Positions 4,889 to 59,814 of a DNA stretch of 64,000 bases are shown in pieces. Where the stretch lies: positions 1,346,001 through 1,410,000 of the forward strand of contig NZ_CP072348.1 of the NCBI RefSeq assembly GCF_018127925.1. The letters run 5' to 3'. Under the pieces are notes generated by a model. That model searched no databases. It saw only the letters and a program-made list of their open reading frames with translations, and was not told the origin of the DNA. Position numbers and translations under genes: made by a program. The first letter of the stretch is position 1. Each line of letters begins with the position of its first letter. Source of the DNA: Prevotella melaninogenica (GTDB lineage: Bacteria; Bacteroidota; Bacteroidia; Bacteroidales; Bacteroidaceae).

Positions 4889-5358
4889 GGGTTCTTCCGT
4901 TAAACATGTAGATTGGTAATAGAATAAAATTAATCCACAGGCATGGTATGATTTGCTCTAATTAAATGATTTTATGGAGAGGGATAAACTACATGATAAA
5001 TGTAATTAGGTGCAACGTCTATCTGACTTCTACAAGCAACTTATTCCCTTATTAGTTGATGTTTGTAAACTATTTTCACACAACTCAATACTAACACATG
5101 CTCTTTTGGCTTCCAAAAGACGCCCAATTGACTTGCAAAAGGTGCCCTTCAAGACCCTTACTAACGCCCTTTTGAAGTCCAATTAAGCACCTTTTGCGTT
5201 ACCGTTTTATAACTAACTGATATCCTGTTGATTACGAACCTACCTTTTTCATATGCTTTCAACCTTATTTATGGGTGTTTTATCGCAAATTATGTAATGA
5301 TTTTTCAAAACACTATCATTGAGTTTTCGAGTATTAAAAAGAACAAGGTTTTTAGGGC
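4889..5358 (-). mobile_element. Non-coding inverted-repeat element (MITE-like), copy 1, truncated
   Basis: One end (4889-4908) reads GGTTCTTCCGTTAAACATG, a close match to the terminal inverted repeat of the copy at 40696. The body then follows that copy in reverse orientation, including the strongly conserved core (about 5090-5215) with AAAAGGGCG, GGCACCTTTTGCAAG and GCCAAAAGAGCATG on its reverse strand. Similarity stops near 5358, so the other terminus is missing. No open frame of note lies inside. Confidence 0.75.
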
Positions 5359-5803
5359 GGAGGATTATAAAAACAAAGCAATGGAAGTAACAGAGGCACC
5401 GTCGGTGCATAGAGCCACGGAACTTGTTTGCCAATTCTATTAGCAATTTATATACAAAGCGTTTACCCCAAAATAGTTATCAAGAATCACTACGCTATAC
5501 CTCCGTCGCTCTTTGTGCCGTCAGCACCTCCGTGACATTGCATTACCTCCGTCCCCTCCGTGACTCAGTGTGCCCATTATATAAGACTTTTAGTTTATCA
5601 ATCCATATTCGGAAGAACCTTAAGAACTCCAAGACAAGCACACAAAAAAGCCCGAATTAATCGAGAAAAGTTATCCTTCACTCAATCAATCCGGACCATG
5701 TAGTTTATCTAAATACCAATTATCCTTCACCTATTAAGATACGTACGATAAACAACTATTATCCCACACAGAAGCAATCTGACGTATTAGGGAAAGGAAT
5801 AAA
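5359..5803. other. Intergenic remnant with repeated CCTCCGT motif
   Basis: This gene-free stretch follows the truncated element. Between about 5500 and 5570 the heptamer CCTCCGT recurs several times in a GC-richer patch, preceded by CACCGTCGGTGC near 5398. Short open frames here lack coding character. I see no promoter or terminator I can support. Confidence 0.4.
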
Positions 5804-25393: not shown

Positions 25394-25546
25394 TACCTTT
25401 GCAGTCCGATTATTAAGGGGGATTTTCTTAGAACCCCATACGATACGTGTTAATAGTGTTGTCTTTGGCCGGGCAGCATGGTTAGGAAAAGCACAGTCGT
25501 AGAAATAGAAAACGTTTTTTAGTAGTAAAATTATTAATTTTTTAGA
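25394..25546 (+). promoter_or_regulatory. Promoter and long leader of rplM-rpsI
   Basis: TACCTTTG at 25394-25401 is a consensus -7 box. The predicted transcript carries a leader of about 140 nt with a GGGG...CCCC hairpin (about 25418-25437) and a GC-richer stretch TTTGGCCGGGCAGCATGG near 25465, ending in an A/T-rich run before the ATG. Ribosomal protein operons often bind their own product in such leaders; that role is an inference. Confidence 0.5.
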
Positions 25547-40695: not shown

Positions 40696-41262
40696 GGCTC
40701 TTCCGTTAAATGCGTAGATGCTTTTCGTACTGCTTTAACGGAAGGACCGAAGTTATTCATTAAACAATACCATAACTAAGACTGTCAACTATCTATCCTA
40801 TTATTAGCCTCTTTCATTGAAAACCTTTACACTTTAAGGCTTCGAATATCTACATACAAGGGTTTGAAATATCATTACATATTTTCAAATAAGACATCTA
40901 TAAATAACGGTAAAAACACAGATAAGGAGTATATTTGTAACCACATGAAAGTCAATTAGTTATAAAATAGCAAAGTAAACGGTGCTTTATTGGATTTCAA
41001 AAGGGCGTTAGTAAGCGTCTTAAAGGGCATCTTTTGCAAGCCAATTAGGCGTCTTTTAGAAGCCAAAAGAGCATGTATTGGTTTTGAGTTGCATAAAAAT
41101 AGTTTACAAATATCAATTGGTAAGAGAATCTGCTGTTTGTAGAAGACAAAAAGACATAATAATGGATAGACATTTTTTTTTTTGCCTTTTCTACATTATA
41201 TCTTGTAGTTTATTCCTTTTATATACCTAATGGGATATATCTATCCATTTAACGGAAGAGCC
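40696..41262 (+). mobile_element. Complete 567-bp non-coding inverted-repeat element (MITE), copy 2
   Basis: The ends are perfect 17-bp inverted repeats, GGCTCTTCCGTTAAATG at 40696-40712 and its complement at 41246-41262. TATTTATA directly flanks both sides (40688-40695 and 41263-41270), a perfect 8-bp target duplication. No transposase frame is present. Ends beginning GGCTCTTCC with 8-bp duplications resemble the ISL3 family as I recall it, so an ISL3-type enzyme probably moved it. The left end holds an inner hairpin (CTTCCGTTAAA with TTTAACGGAAG, 40699-40744). The conserved core of the family is at about 40975-41110. Confidence 0.88.
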
Positions 41263-47689: not shown

Positions 47690-48256
47690 ACAATAGAAGC
47701 GCTCAATGGAAAGAACACTAAACATTAAACAAAAACATAGCTAAGACTATCAGTCGTCTATCCTTTTATTATCTTCTCACATAGAATACCTTTTCTTTTT
47801 AATACTTCAAAAGTACAAAAAAGACCATGAAAATTCATTACATAATTTCGAATAAAACATCTGAAAACAAAGACAAAAACCCATGTAAAAAGCAGGTTTG
47901 TAACCAACAGGAAATCAATTTGTTATGAAGTAGCAAAGTAAAAGGTGCTTAATTGGACTTCAAAAGGGCGTTACTTAGACCTTAAAAGGGCACCTTTTGC
48001 AAGTCAATTGGGCGTCTTTTAGAAGCCAAAAGAGCATGTATTGGCTTTGCACTATACGAAAATAGTTTACAAACGCATCTTAATCAGGGAAGAAGTTGTT
48101 TATAGAAGACGAATAGACATCGTATCTATTTCCCCTTTCTCCATTTCATCTTGCAGTTTATCCGCCTTTGTAAGAGCATCTTATATGGGGAGATTAATAC
48201 TATACAAGTGTATAAGACTTTATTCTATTCTCATTATATGACCTTAATAGAAGGAC
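47690..48256 (+). mobile_element. Non-coding inverted-repeat element, copy 3, ends degraded
   Basis: From ATTAAACAAAAACATAGC (about 47723) to the region before 48256 it follows copies 2 and 4 in the same orientation. The terminal GGCTCTTCC sequences have decayed (right end TTAATAGAAGGACTTC). The core (about 47925-48065) is nearly identical to the other copies. It lies 200 bp upstream of the pnp promoter. Confidence 0.7.
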
Positions 48257-52956: not shown

Positions 52957-54642
52957 CTATTCGGGTTTAGATTGTGTGGAGGTTGATTTACCAATTACTC
53001 GACAGAGTTTCATCACTTCTTCCTCGAAAGTTTCTTTGTTAATGGCTTTCCCCTTTAAGACAGAACGATAGTTATAGATGGTCTGTGGAGAGTAGAACAG
53101 CAGGTCAGCTATCTCGGCACTTTCCTTTACGCCTAATCGGATAAGTGCCATAATGCGCTGTTCTGTAGTGAGTTCATCGGTACTTTTGTTCTGAATCTGC
53201 CCTTCTGGTAAGAGTAGGCTGTTTAACTCCTCAGTAAAGTCTGGATAGAGATCGAGGAACGCTTTATCAAAGCGAGAGAGGAATGTAGCAGCGTCTTCTT
53301 CAGATAATCGTTCTGATGAAAGCTGACTAAGCAATTCAGTGGTTTGATTGGCTTTAATCTTTCTTTTAACCAATGTCTGTTGTTTCTTGAGTCGGGCAAT
53401 ATACTTTGCACAAAGGTCGATATACAATTTTGCTAATCTCTCGCGTTTACGGTTGGTATCAACAAGTAACGCATTGAGGTCGTGTAGTTGAGTATTCAAC
53501 CCTTTTTGCTGGGTATTCAGTTCAGAGAGTTGGTTGTTATTCTTTTGCAATTCCTGTTGCTGAAGACTAAGGCGTTTGGTTTGTTTAACGATATAAAAGA
53601 CTGCAGAAAGCAGGAAGAGTAGAAGTAGCGAGATAACGGTGATGGCTGTCATCTGCACTTTGTTGCGCTGGTTAAGCGTCTGCTGATAGCTACTTACAAT
53701 CACTGGTAGCTTGCTTGATATCTCAATAATGCGGAGTCTGTTATTATAGAAATGAGCATCCTCGAGTGCTGTCTGAATATATTGTTGTGCAAGGTCAAGC
53801 TCATCTTTGTTGTGTTCAAAGATGTACATTGCAAGGTTTTGGAGGGCAAAGTTCTCCATCGTACAGTTCTCTATATCTGCAATACTCGACAATAAAAGGA
53901 ACTCTTCTTGCTTTTCTGTATTTCCCTCGTTGCCATAACCACCAGAGAGCGCAAAGCACGACATGGCATAGAATCGGGATTTTTGGGGTAACTGCTTTAT
54001 GGCTTTAAGGTAATGAGCACGTGCTGCTTGTGGATTATTCAATACAAAAACAGCGTATTCACCGAGGTAATACTCGTAAGTTTTATCGGTTTCATCGCAA
54101 AAAGGCATAGCCTTCTTAAGATAATCTTTTGCCTTTAATCGGTGTGTTGGCGTATAGGTCTTATCGTTACAGAAGTCTGCCCAATAGGTGTGAATACGGA
54201 AGAGTGAGAAGTAATAATCAAAGTGTTGTGCCTTGCCAAGAACCGTTGTGTCCACCTGTTCTATTTCATGAATAGCCTCATTATATAAGCCACCAATGGA
54301 TAATAGCTCTGCCTTACTGATGGTATTACTATTGTAATAGTAGGTGTTCTGCGTCTCTTTTGCAAGTTTGATACCTTTGTTTAGGTATGTCATTGCAGAG
54401 TCAAATTGGAAGACATAGTATTCTTCAAATAGCTGTTCGTAGGTCTGTAGACGTTTAAGCGTATTCTCACTGGTTGTGAGATTCTGCTTTAGTCGGTTGA
54501 TATCTTTATTCTTATTGTCGATAAGTGCATTGCGTTGCTCCAACAAATTGTCTAACTTTTGTCGTAGCTGTTGTGTCTTACTACCAGCAGATAATGTCGT
54601 TGGCAGTAGCAAGAAGAGTATATATAATAAGCTTCTTTTCAT
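52957..54642 (-). CDS. SusR-like membrane-bound transcriptional regulator (DUF6377 type)
   Basis: 561 residues. Signal peptide (1-19), periplasmic helical TPR-like repeats (60-310; FDSAMTYLNKGIKLAKET, YYLGEYAVFVLNNPQAARAHYLKAIKQL), a membrane helix (331-352), a cytoplasmic coiled coil (355-400), and a C-terminal helix-turn-helix (490-535; ELTTEQRIMALIRLGVKESAEIADLLF, then SPQTIYNYRSVLK) like LuxR domains. This is the plan of SusR, the maltose-sensing activator of the starch locus of B. thetaiotaomicron. It is divergent from the GH97 gene 252 bp away, which it probably activates. Maltose sensing is inferred from that pairing. Confidence 0.82.
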   Translation of the reverse strand: MKRSLLYILFLLLPTTLSAGSKTQQLRQKLDNLLEQRNALIDNKNKDINRLKQNLTTSENTLKRLQTYEQLFEEYYVFQFDSAMTYLNKGIKLAKETQNTYYYNSNTISKAELLSIGGLYNEAIHEIEQVDTTVLGKAQHFDYYFSLFRIHTYWADFCNDKTYTPTHRLKAKDYLKKAMPFCDETDKTYEYYLGEYAVFVLNNPQAARAHYLKAIKQLPQKSRFYAMSCFALSGGYGNEGNTEKQEEFLLLSSIADIENCTMENFALQNLAMYIFEHNKDELDLAQQYIQTALEDAHFYNNRLRIIEISSKLPVIVSSYQQTLNQRNKVQMTAITVISLLLLFLLSAVFYIVKQTKRLSLQQQELQKNNNQLSELNTQQKGLNTQLHDLNALLVDTNRKRERLAKLYIDLCAKYIARLKKQQTLVKRKIKANQTTELLSQLSSERLSEEDAATFLSRFDKAFLDLYPDFTEELNSLLLPEGQIQNKSTDELTTEQRIMALIRLGVKESAEIADLLFYSPQTIYNYRSVLKGKAINKETFEEEVMKLCRVIGKSTSTQSKPE

Positions 54643-57169: not shown

Positions 57170-57264
57170 TCTTACACGAAGCGTCTAACTTACTTACATT
57201 ACTACATACTGAAACCATTAATTGTAACGTTACATAAGAGATGATATCATGTCCCAAAATAAGA

Positions 57265-59073
57265 ATGAAGCAAATGAAGAAAATTGCAATCATCTGTGTA
57301 ATATTATGTACGCCATTACTTATTAATGCACAGACCCAAATACCAACACTTGACGATCTCGACCATGAGATAGCCATGTCATCCCAGTATGACAAACAAT
57401 ATGAAGATGTTATACGTAATGTAAAGAAGCAACTTCATGCTGCAAAGAGCTTGGAGACTCGTTGCGAATTGTCTGACAAGCTATTCAATCTTTATACATC
57501 TTATTCTGTAGACTCTGCTATAGTCTACGCTATGGAAAAGCAGAAAATAGCAAAGGCAATGGGCAATCAGAGTAAGGTAAATGATGCAAAACTTAATCTT
57601 GCCTACCTCTTGATAAGGGGTGGAGAACTCAAGGATGCAAGCGATATTATTAATTCCATTCCTCGAAGTGGGATAAGCCAAGACTTGTCTTTCTATTATT
57701 TCTCAACGCGAAAGACCCTCTATCGTACGCTTGCTGATGCTGCTTTAATCCCTTCGCAGAGGAAGATGTACAAGCAGATGGAGAAACTTTGTAACGATTC
57801 TGTCGTTGATAATAACCAATCTCCTGACATTTGGTCACGTGCAGAACAGCTTGTTAATCGCCAACAGTATGAACAAGCGAAGAAAATTCTCCTTGATGCC
57901 TATCGCCACTTGAAACCTGGTGACCGTCAAACAGCATTTGTGTCAATCTCGCTTGCTGATATTTATGGTAGGGAGAAGAATGTGGAAGCTCAAAAGCAAT
58001 ACCTCATTGCAGCTGCTATCTCTGATATACGCAACTCAGTAAAGGAATATCTTGCCCTACAGCAATTGGCTACGATCCTTTTTGAAGAAGGTGATACAAA
58101 ACGTGCTTATGCCTATATGGACCACGCTATGAACGACGCTGTGTTCTGTAATGCACGTCAGCGTACAATTGCTATGGCTGACGTTTGGCCAGCAATAGAA
58201 AAGTCACATGAGCGTGAAACAAAGAGTCGTACACTCAAACTTACAGCCGCTCTTGTGCTGATAAGCCTCATGTCTATCTTCTTGTTGGTTATGATTATCT
58301 ATACGCGTCGTCGTGTTGTAGAATTGCGTGCTATTCGTGCGCGTCTTTCTAACACAAATGAATTGCTGAAAGAATCAAATAATATTAAGGATGAGTATTA
58401 TTGCTGTCCGGTAAAAATAAACTGAAAGTTCTGTATCTCTTTATTCATCGGTGTTGCAGCCGTTTTACTTATCTAGGGGCTTGGTTCTTAGTTTTAAACT
58501 GTAAGCATTATAAAATGCGCTTATTTTGACAAGGAAAGCCCTATAATAACCAAATAAATTAATGAAATCATAAGTTTAAGCCTATTTTATCTAACACAGA
58601 TAACTCCAAAAAAGTTTTATCGGACACCAATAGATGAGTATATCACTCGCTTCCTTAGCGAGTGTTCTGCTTACATCGACAAACTCGACAGCTATCGTAA
58701 ACAGATTTATCGTCTTGTTACAGCCAATAAGCGCACAGAACTGCTGAACACATTGAAGTCACAGGAGATAATCGACCGTGAGTTAGATTCCTTCTATTCA
58801 AGTTTTGATGAGACCTTCCTCGGTCTTTTCCCAAACTTTGTGGAAGATTTCAACGCATTGCTCAAACCAGAGGAGAGGATTATTCCTAAACAAGCAGGAC
58901 ATCTCTCTACTGATCTTCGCATCTTTGCACTCATTCGCCTTGGCGTAAGTGAGAATGAGCTTATATGTTCTTTCCTTTGCTGCTCAAAAGCAACGGTCTA
59001 TGCTTACCGTTCTCGTGTACGTCTGAAGTCTATTGATCCTGATAAATTCGATGAAATGGTACAAAAACTATAA
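57265..59073 (+). pseudogene. Second SusR-like regulator, split by a 234-bp inserted element
   Basis: The first part (57265-58398) encodes a signal peptide (MKQMKKIAIICVILCTPLLINAQ), TPR-like periplasmic helices and a membrane helix (LTAALVLISLMSIFLLVMIIY), then KDEY, and runs 8 codons into the insert to a TGA stop at 58423-58425. The second part (58642-59073) encodes ITRFLSECSAYIDKLDSYRK and the helix-turn-helix domain to VQKL. Removing the insert and one target copy joins the parts in frame into about 521 residues, similar in plan to the intact paralogue at 52957. An ATG at 58753 could start a separate DNA-binding fragment of 106 residues. Confidence 0.85.
58399..58632 (+). mobile_element. 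234-bp MITE inserted in the susR-like gene
   Basis: The ends are 18-bp inverted repeats with two mismatches: TATTGCTGTCCGGTAAAA at 58399-58416 and, reading the opposite strand, TATTGGTGTCCGATAAAA at 58632-58615. GATGAGTAT is duplicated on both sides (58390-58398 and 58633-58641). No reading frame is large enough for a transposase. The ends differ from the GGCTCTTCC family, so another transposase moved it; the family is not certain, perhaps IS4-like. Confidence 0.88.
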
Positions 59074-59224: not shown

Positions 59225-59814
59225 GGTCATTTTCCGTTCAATGTGTAGATTGTACTTCGTATAGTCTTAACGGAAGAAATGAAGTTACTCATTAAACAAA
59301 CAACATTGCTAAGACACTCAGCTATCTATTCTATGATTATCTTCTGCCATAGAAAACTCCTTCAGTTTAATACTGCAAAATCACAGACAAAGCGCAGAAA
59401 AATCATTACAAAACCTCAAGCAAAACAACTATAAATAACGACAAAAACACGAATAAAAGACAAGCTTATAACCAACAGGAAATCAATTGGTTATAAAACA
59501 GCAAAATAAAAGGTGCTTAATTGGACTTCAAAAGGGCGTTAGTAAGGGTCCTAAAGGGCACCTTTTACAAGTCTATTAAGCGTCTTTAAGAAGCCAAAAG
59601 AGCATGTATTGGTTTTGAACCACATGAAAATTATTTACACACAGCTATAAAGTGAGAATAAGAAATTTGAAGATTACGAATAGCGATAATATCGATTTGC
59701 ATATTATCTTATAGTTTATTCCCCGTGTAAGACCGACTAATTGCATACATCCACACCATACAAGCGTGTAAACTTTGACTCTATTTCCAATCCATGTATC
59801 TAACAGAAGCCGCC
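59225..59814 (+). mobile_element. Non-coding inverted-repeat element, copy 4
   Basis: The left end, TTTTCCGTTCAATGTGTAG with the inner hairpin partner TTAACGGAAG (59266-59275), and the right end CTAACAGAAGCCGCC are degraded forms of the GGCTCTTCC terminal repeat. The core (about 59490-59640) matches copies 1-3. No target duplication is recognisable. Confidence 0.72.

Follow-up and report, generated by a model that had tools for sequence, protein, structure and literature searches.

The SusR-like regulator gene susR2 of Prevotella melaninogenica is split by a 234-bp MITE. Very probably this element inserted recently, most likely through the transposase of a resident 1460-bp insertion sequence (IS) of the IS4 family, and the regulator is most likely non-functional as a result. 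The window, the whole 64,000-nucleotide stretch of DNA analysed, corresponds to G000:C2:1346001-1410000, G000 being a two-contig, 3.36-Mb assembly that is 99.96% complete. The features around the insertion are as follows.

52957..54642, minus strand: susR3, a second SusR-like regulator of 561 aa, uninterrupted; it scores 424.6 bits on NF058541, whose cut-off is 480 bits
54895..57033, plus strand: GH97 glycosidase, intact, adjoining susR2; SusB-like by family only
57241..58425, plus strand: upstream part of susR2, with a TPR-like sensor and membrane helix; native codons to 58398
58390..58398, plus strand: 9-bp target-site duplication on the left, GATGAGTAT; G156 and G170 have this 9-mer once at the site
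58399..58632, plus strand: MITE, 234 bp, with no transposase gene, from the sequence and a repeat search
58399..58416, plus strand: left terminal inverted repeat, 18 bp, TATTGCTGTCCGGTAAAA; it matches the left end of the 1460-bp IS at 17 of 18 positions
58615..58632, plus strand: right terminal inverted repeat, 18 bp, TTTTATCGGACACCAATA, from the repeat search
58633..58641, plus strand: 9-bp target-site duplication on the right, GATGAGTAT
58642..59073, plus strand: downstream part of susR2, C-terminal and DNA-binding, from open reading frames and profile matches

An earlier reading of the sequence alone (the sequence-only reading) had described a 234-bp element with 18-bp ends and a 9-bp duplication, which is correct to the base; the span it gave, 58390-58641, is the MITE plus both duplication copies. 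The terminal inverted repeats are 89% complementary across a 198-nt spacer, the longest stop-to-stop stretch within this copy is 42 aa, and the repeat search revealed no tandem array inside it. The element and one target duplication together make 243 bp, or 81 codons, and positions 58390 and 58633 both start codons of one frame, so that the gene is indeed split between codons, as had been claimed. Such a codon-boundary split is expected by chance one time in three and carries no weight.

The upstream frame continues past 58398 for eight MITE codons and ends at a stop at 58423-58425. The 521-residue protein that the sequence-only reading proposed to restore fits a start at ATG 57265; starting from other in-frame ATGs would make it 518 or 529 residues long. 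Its identification as a SusR-like regulator is borne out by NCBIfam model NF058541 (SusR family glycan utilisation regulator), on which the two halves are complementary, matching positions 4-371 and 369-514 of 515. They score 284.7 and 200.2 bits, against a cut-off of 480 bits for the whole protein; the susR2 of the window is a broken member of this family. Pfam DUF6377 also covers both halves. The insertion lies after the predicted membrane helix and before a predicted C-terminal helix-turn-helix-like region, in agreement with the earlier claim that the sensor and membrane part is separated from the DNA-binding part.

The sequence-only reading proposed that the insertion could be strain specific; comparison shows that, against its relatives, it is specific to G000. 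The susR2 orthologues are uninterrupted in G156 (526 aa), G170 (529 aa) and G003 (530 aa) and score 495.8, 499.6 and 508.3 bits on NF058541, against its cut-off of 480. At the site itself, G156 and G170, which are 98-99% identical to the window beside it, carry one copy of GATGAGTAT. These whole orthologues and single target copies uphold the claim that one protein existed before insertion. Among named relatives the nearest found was Prevotella vespertina (L096), which G003 is taken to represent. When the 120-bp flank was searched against 398 genomes including the window's own, matches extended over 120 bp in G156, 117 bp in G170 and 26 bp in G409. A whole-gene search of 60 genomes, a set that includes the window's own and lies apart from G156 and G170, matched 11; apart from G000, a match in both halves was obtained in G003 alone. 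One uninterrupted frame crosses the junction at 42 of 43 named homologue loci, the 43rd (L137) being a contig-edge fragment that begins beyond the junction, and none of the 43 has MITE-like end pairs. With the frame whole in all three nearest genomes examined and at these 42 loci, the split arrangement is not shared by all relatives; had it been, that would have told against the sequence-only reading.

The MITE is present in many copies. A 451-base query identifies 15 places in G000: 11 full-length MITEs, one partial and three short matches. The full-length copies, 233 or 234 bp long and 93-100% identical, lie on both contigs; the partial match is a 70% relative, and the short ones, of 23-24 bp, come from ends of the 1460-bp IS or of a remnant of an IS. 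Perfect 9-bp duplications, all mutually different, flank nine of the 11. Five copies are identical (L001, which is the window copy, and L002 to L005) and occupy five different sites with intact ends and perfect duplications. Because the window copy is one of these five identical elements, its insertion looks recent. Two of the three most diverged copies, L026 and L033, have intact ends and no target duplication; recombination between them was considered as the cause and rejected, as their flanking 9-mers are not swapped. The right-end 18-mer, with up to three mismatches, occurs at 24 + 22 places in G000, versus 3 + 4 for its reversed control, so the ends are repeated more than chance would produce. 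At L005 (1501-1734) an identical MITE lies between two open frames, possibly another interrupted gene; one of the frames is weakly fimbrillin-like (PF13149, 27 bits, at the cut-off) and the other has no Pfam match.

The sequence-only reading had suggested looking for a transposase with these ends, and G000 contains one, an IS4-family enzyme of 410 aa within an element whose ends match those of the MITE. Two exact end pairs span 1460 bp, at C1:787448-788907 and C2:204485-205944. These IS copies are identical, are flanked by the 9-bp duplications TTTTTATAT and ATTCGGCAT, and each encode the transposase, which scores 188.8 bits on the IS4 model NF033592 (cut-off 115) and contains DUF4372 and DDE_Tnp_1 domains (PF01609, 98.6 bits, cut-off 23). 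The IS4 family is characterised by inverted ends and a target duplication of about 9-12 bp. Its DDE transposases are marked by a Y-x2-R-x3-E-x6-K signature, which reads YKRRWQIETLFKQIK in the 410-aa frame. Among five IS loci examined, four have both ends and a perfect 9-bp duplication, and only one end was found at the fifth (L141, in G334). MITE and IS agree at 17 of 18 positions on the left and are identical over the final 23 bp on the right; BLAST found no long similarity between the MITE interior and the 1460-bp IS. Since the two are alike only at their ends, the MITE did not arise from this IS by simple deletion. The small transposable element of the sequence-only reading is thus upheld: it is a MITE in several copies whose ends match those of an IS4-family partner, and the 1460-bp IS is its likely helper.

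The distribution of the transposase leaves room for another helper. A search of 14 genomes including the window's own matched eight, with full-length copies of 94-100% identity in G000 (two), G170 (five) and G334 (one, with an internal stop). MITEs are present in G156, where the transposase survives only as a 75-residue remnant. Transposase matches are absent from five genomes that have near-full-length MITEs (G329, G108, G361, G392 and G148), and for that reason another helper may exist or have existed.

The MITE itself extends across the genus. The 234-bp query matched 47 of 398 genomes, the own genome included, in a search that scored at most two matches per genome. Near-full-length MITEs of 81-94% identity occur in ten others (G156, G329, G170, G108, G187, G361, G392, G198, G276 and G148); many of the remaining matches comprise only the right end, over 24-29 bp. 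Taking one locus from each of these ten genomes, nine could be delimited, the exception being L079, and perfect 9-bp duplications flank seven of these nine. The length is nearly constant across species, at 231-234 bp, and transitions outnumber transversions in every diverged copy compared with that of the window. A search for published descriptions of the element, covering titles and abstract openings of literature on the element and on Prevotella insertions, returned none.

Some MITE copies, such as L036, contain a 43-aa open stretch resembling a membrane helix. Capture of a host gene was rejected as its origin: 20 of 21 matches to the L036 stretch in G000, G156, G170 and G003 are themselves MITE copies, the other is a weak match in G003 (E 0.013, 42% over 36 aa, two stops), and no source gene was found in these four genomes. 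A conserved RNA was likewise rejected. In an alignment and fold of 15 copies (six own, nine from other species), two of 50 predicted pairs are changed on both sides and the covariation term is -1.41. As a single strand the MITE folds with greater stability than shuffled sequences do (z -2.33 and -2.85), and the extra stability could come from the inverted ends alone. Near the site, Rfam hits up to E 1 consist of one sub-threshold match, in the regulator (21.2 bits, gathering 43).

These relationships suggest how the gene was broken. The transposase would bind the ends common to IS and MITE, a donor MITE copy would be excised and pasted into a 9-bp staggered cut at GATGAGTAT, and gap repair would leave the 9-bp duplication; we infer that this cut-and-paste mobilisation was performed in trans by the IS4 transposase. 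The cell would then yield at most a membrane-anchored sensor devoid of its DNA-binding domain. In the 3' part the first usual start codon is TTG 58753, and a convincing promoter is lacking. For these reasons SusR2 has most likely lost its function. Its target genes, which probably serve alpha-glucan utilisation and include the GH97 gene next to it, would then not be induced. The best NCBIfam match of that glycosidase lies far under the model's cut-off.

The split of susR2 has company in this genome. Three genes match the SusR model in each of G156, G170 and G003, two over the cut-off and the third under it, while those of G000 are limited to the split susR2 and the 561-aa susR3; among 14 control genomes the same search matched three, one of them over the cut-off. 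In G156 the susR3 orthologue is broken into two frames (L067, G156:C1:11784-13345). The gene absent from G000, susR1, lies in G156 and G170 within a putative mutan locus that comprises an alpha-1,3-glucanase (GH87-type) and TonB-dependent SusC, SusD, GH99-like and GH97 proteins, domains having been searched in G156 only. The putative mutan locus of P. melaninogenica D18 has a matching make-up, according to the portion of PMC13421300 that treats it, which also describes tests of enzymes of the P. melaninogenica mutan locus on caries biofilm. The corresponding locus of G000 (L166, G000:C2:1551500-1571000) is best read as having undergone two deletions, with changes at about 2058 and 3710. The first apparent deletion takes susR1, the GH87-type glucanase and almost the whole of a 411-aa gene, and the other, of about 2.8 kb, takes susC over its second half together with the greater part of susD; the GH99-like and GH97 genes are retained. 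Elsewhere in G000 the 2.8-kb segment has only short matches of 67-71%. At L002 (1501-1734) an identical MITE lies within a SusD-like gene (PF14322), directly behind its seventh codon, at a site that is empty in G156 and G170 and has no match in G003.

The split of susR2, the apparent deletions in the mutan locus and the L002 insertion may reflect coincidence, relaxed selection or selection. A bolder interpretation holds that this strain is giving up alpha-glucan sensing, either through loss or through a reversible switch, with a burst of MITE transposition supplying selected and possibly reversible switches of glycan genes; we regard it as unlikely.

Reversibility at susR2 itself, through precise excision between the 9-bp repeats and a mixed population of on and off cells, is improbable. 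Perfect repeats do flank the MITE, its inverted ends could juxtapose them, and relatives have the site without the element; the data, however, include no excised allele of this species. Elements of this kind generally seldom excise precisely, which counts against a switch, and the five identical copies all have intact ends and perfect duplications, so that nothing sets the site in susR2 apart.

It is also quite improbable that the split gene works as two proteins, with the sensor in the membrane and the DNA-binding fragment free, so that the regulator would be rewired and not destroyed. Both halves are otherwise open, with no further stops, and window-specific codon changes are mostly synonymous: four non-synonymous and 14 synonymous in the upstream half, and one and two in the downstream half, with eight and 53 in the GH97 gene. 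The insertion looks recent, however, so that absence of decay is expected anyway, and the few non-synonymous changes are not a sign of separate function because too little time has passed. The synonymous bias fits a very recent insertion, with no positive sign of decay. The sole downstream amino-acid change, from Arg to Cys, falls within the helix-turn-helix-like region at a residue that is Arg in all three relatives, which argues against a functional fragment. A 106-aa frame from TTG 58753, before which the downstream half has no in-frame ATG, GTG or TTG, does keep the DNA-binding region, but its product would be short of 37 residues that follow the duplication.

Expression of such a fragment would depend on a promoter. 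A sigma-70-like site at 58685-58713 (9 of 12 matches) lies upstream of TTG 58753, and a second plus-strand site lies at 58745-58772, though the scan, with three sites versus an average of 2.1 in shuffles, is at chance level. A promoter within the MITE driving the 3' half was rejected: the scan, which is of sigma-70 type and does not cover Bacteroidota promoters, finds no site inside the element, and no good Bacteroidota-type promoter is visible by eye against the consensus of that group. A terminator-like stem at 58644-58664, just 3' of the insertion, and the single frame at 42 of 43 named homologous loci also speak against two proteins. Finally, the five identical copies in G000 create a setting in which a repeat could be misplaced into susR2 by misassembly, but such an artefact is extremely unlikely in a two-contig, 99.96% complete assembly and because the 9-bp duplication at this site is its own, different from those of the other copies, and would not arise from a misjoin.

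Two further elements of the window were observed. Another dispersed repeat, with matches of roughly 220-510 bp, occurs in at least 41 places in G000 and also in the query stretches of G156 and G170. Its window copies are at 4918-5372, 40794-41157, 47759-48245 and 59327-59785, one of them just downstream of susR2, and no Rfam match at gathering score was found for it. The only Rfam match of the window over its gathering score is an L13-Bacteroidia ribosomal protein leader (RF03127) at 25418-25492.

The MITE resembles known bacterial elements in kind and differs from them in detail. MITEs are defined as short elements, present several times in a genome, that lack a transposase gene and have target duplications and inverted, IS-like ends (PMC4596501). 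BrickBuilt of Porphyromonas gingivalis is likewise short and multi-copy, with inverted ends and target duplications; as described in the relevant sections of PMC4596501, its ends differ from those of the window MITE, it holds a minisatellite, and its duplications vary in length between copies, in contrast to the 9 bp found here. Similar ends do appear in that paper, in a table row labelled IS5, whereas the partner here is IS4. MITEAba12 of Acinetobacter (PMC6382973) is also a bacterial MITE, with other ends. Like IS4-family elements (NF033592), the 1460-bp partner encodes a DDE transposase and is flanked by 9-bp duplications, and its ends match those of the MITE; the MITE itself carries no transposase, and its interior has no long similarity to the IS. 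SusR of Bacteroides thetaiotaomicron (BT3705) belongs by name to the same NCBIfam family, NF058541, the likeness being one of family name. Deletion of SusR in B. thetaiotaomicron or B. ovatus abolishes growth on maltoheptaose and starch, as part of PMC11633381 reports. Unlike BT3705, the window gene is split by a MITE, and its alpha-glucan targets in Prevotella are only presumed.

As a type of event, the knock-out of a gene by a MITE is ordinary. This case rises above routine through the probable helper IS that G000 also carries, the indications that the insertion is recent, the sites that are empty in sister species and the absence of another SusR gene; as the disruption of a glycan-sensing regulator by a MITE it is well documented. 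The present activity of IS4-linked MITEs in this group of Prevotella thereby becomes testable, as does loss or switching of alpha-glucan sensing between strains, a question that matters because the putative mutan locus is also damaged in G000.
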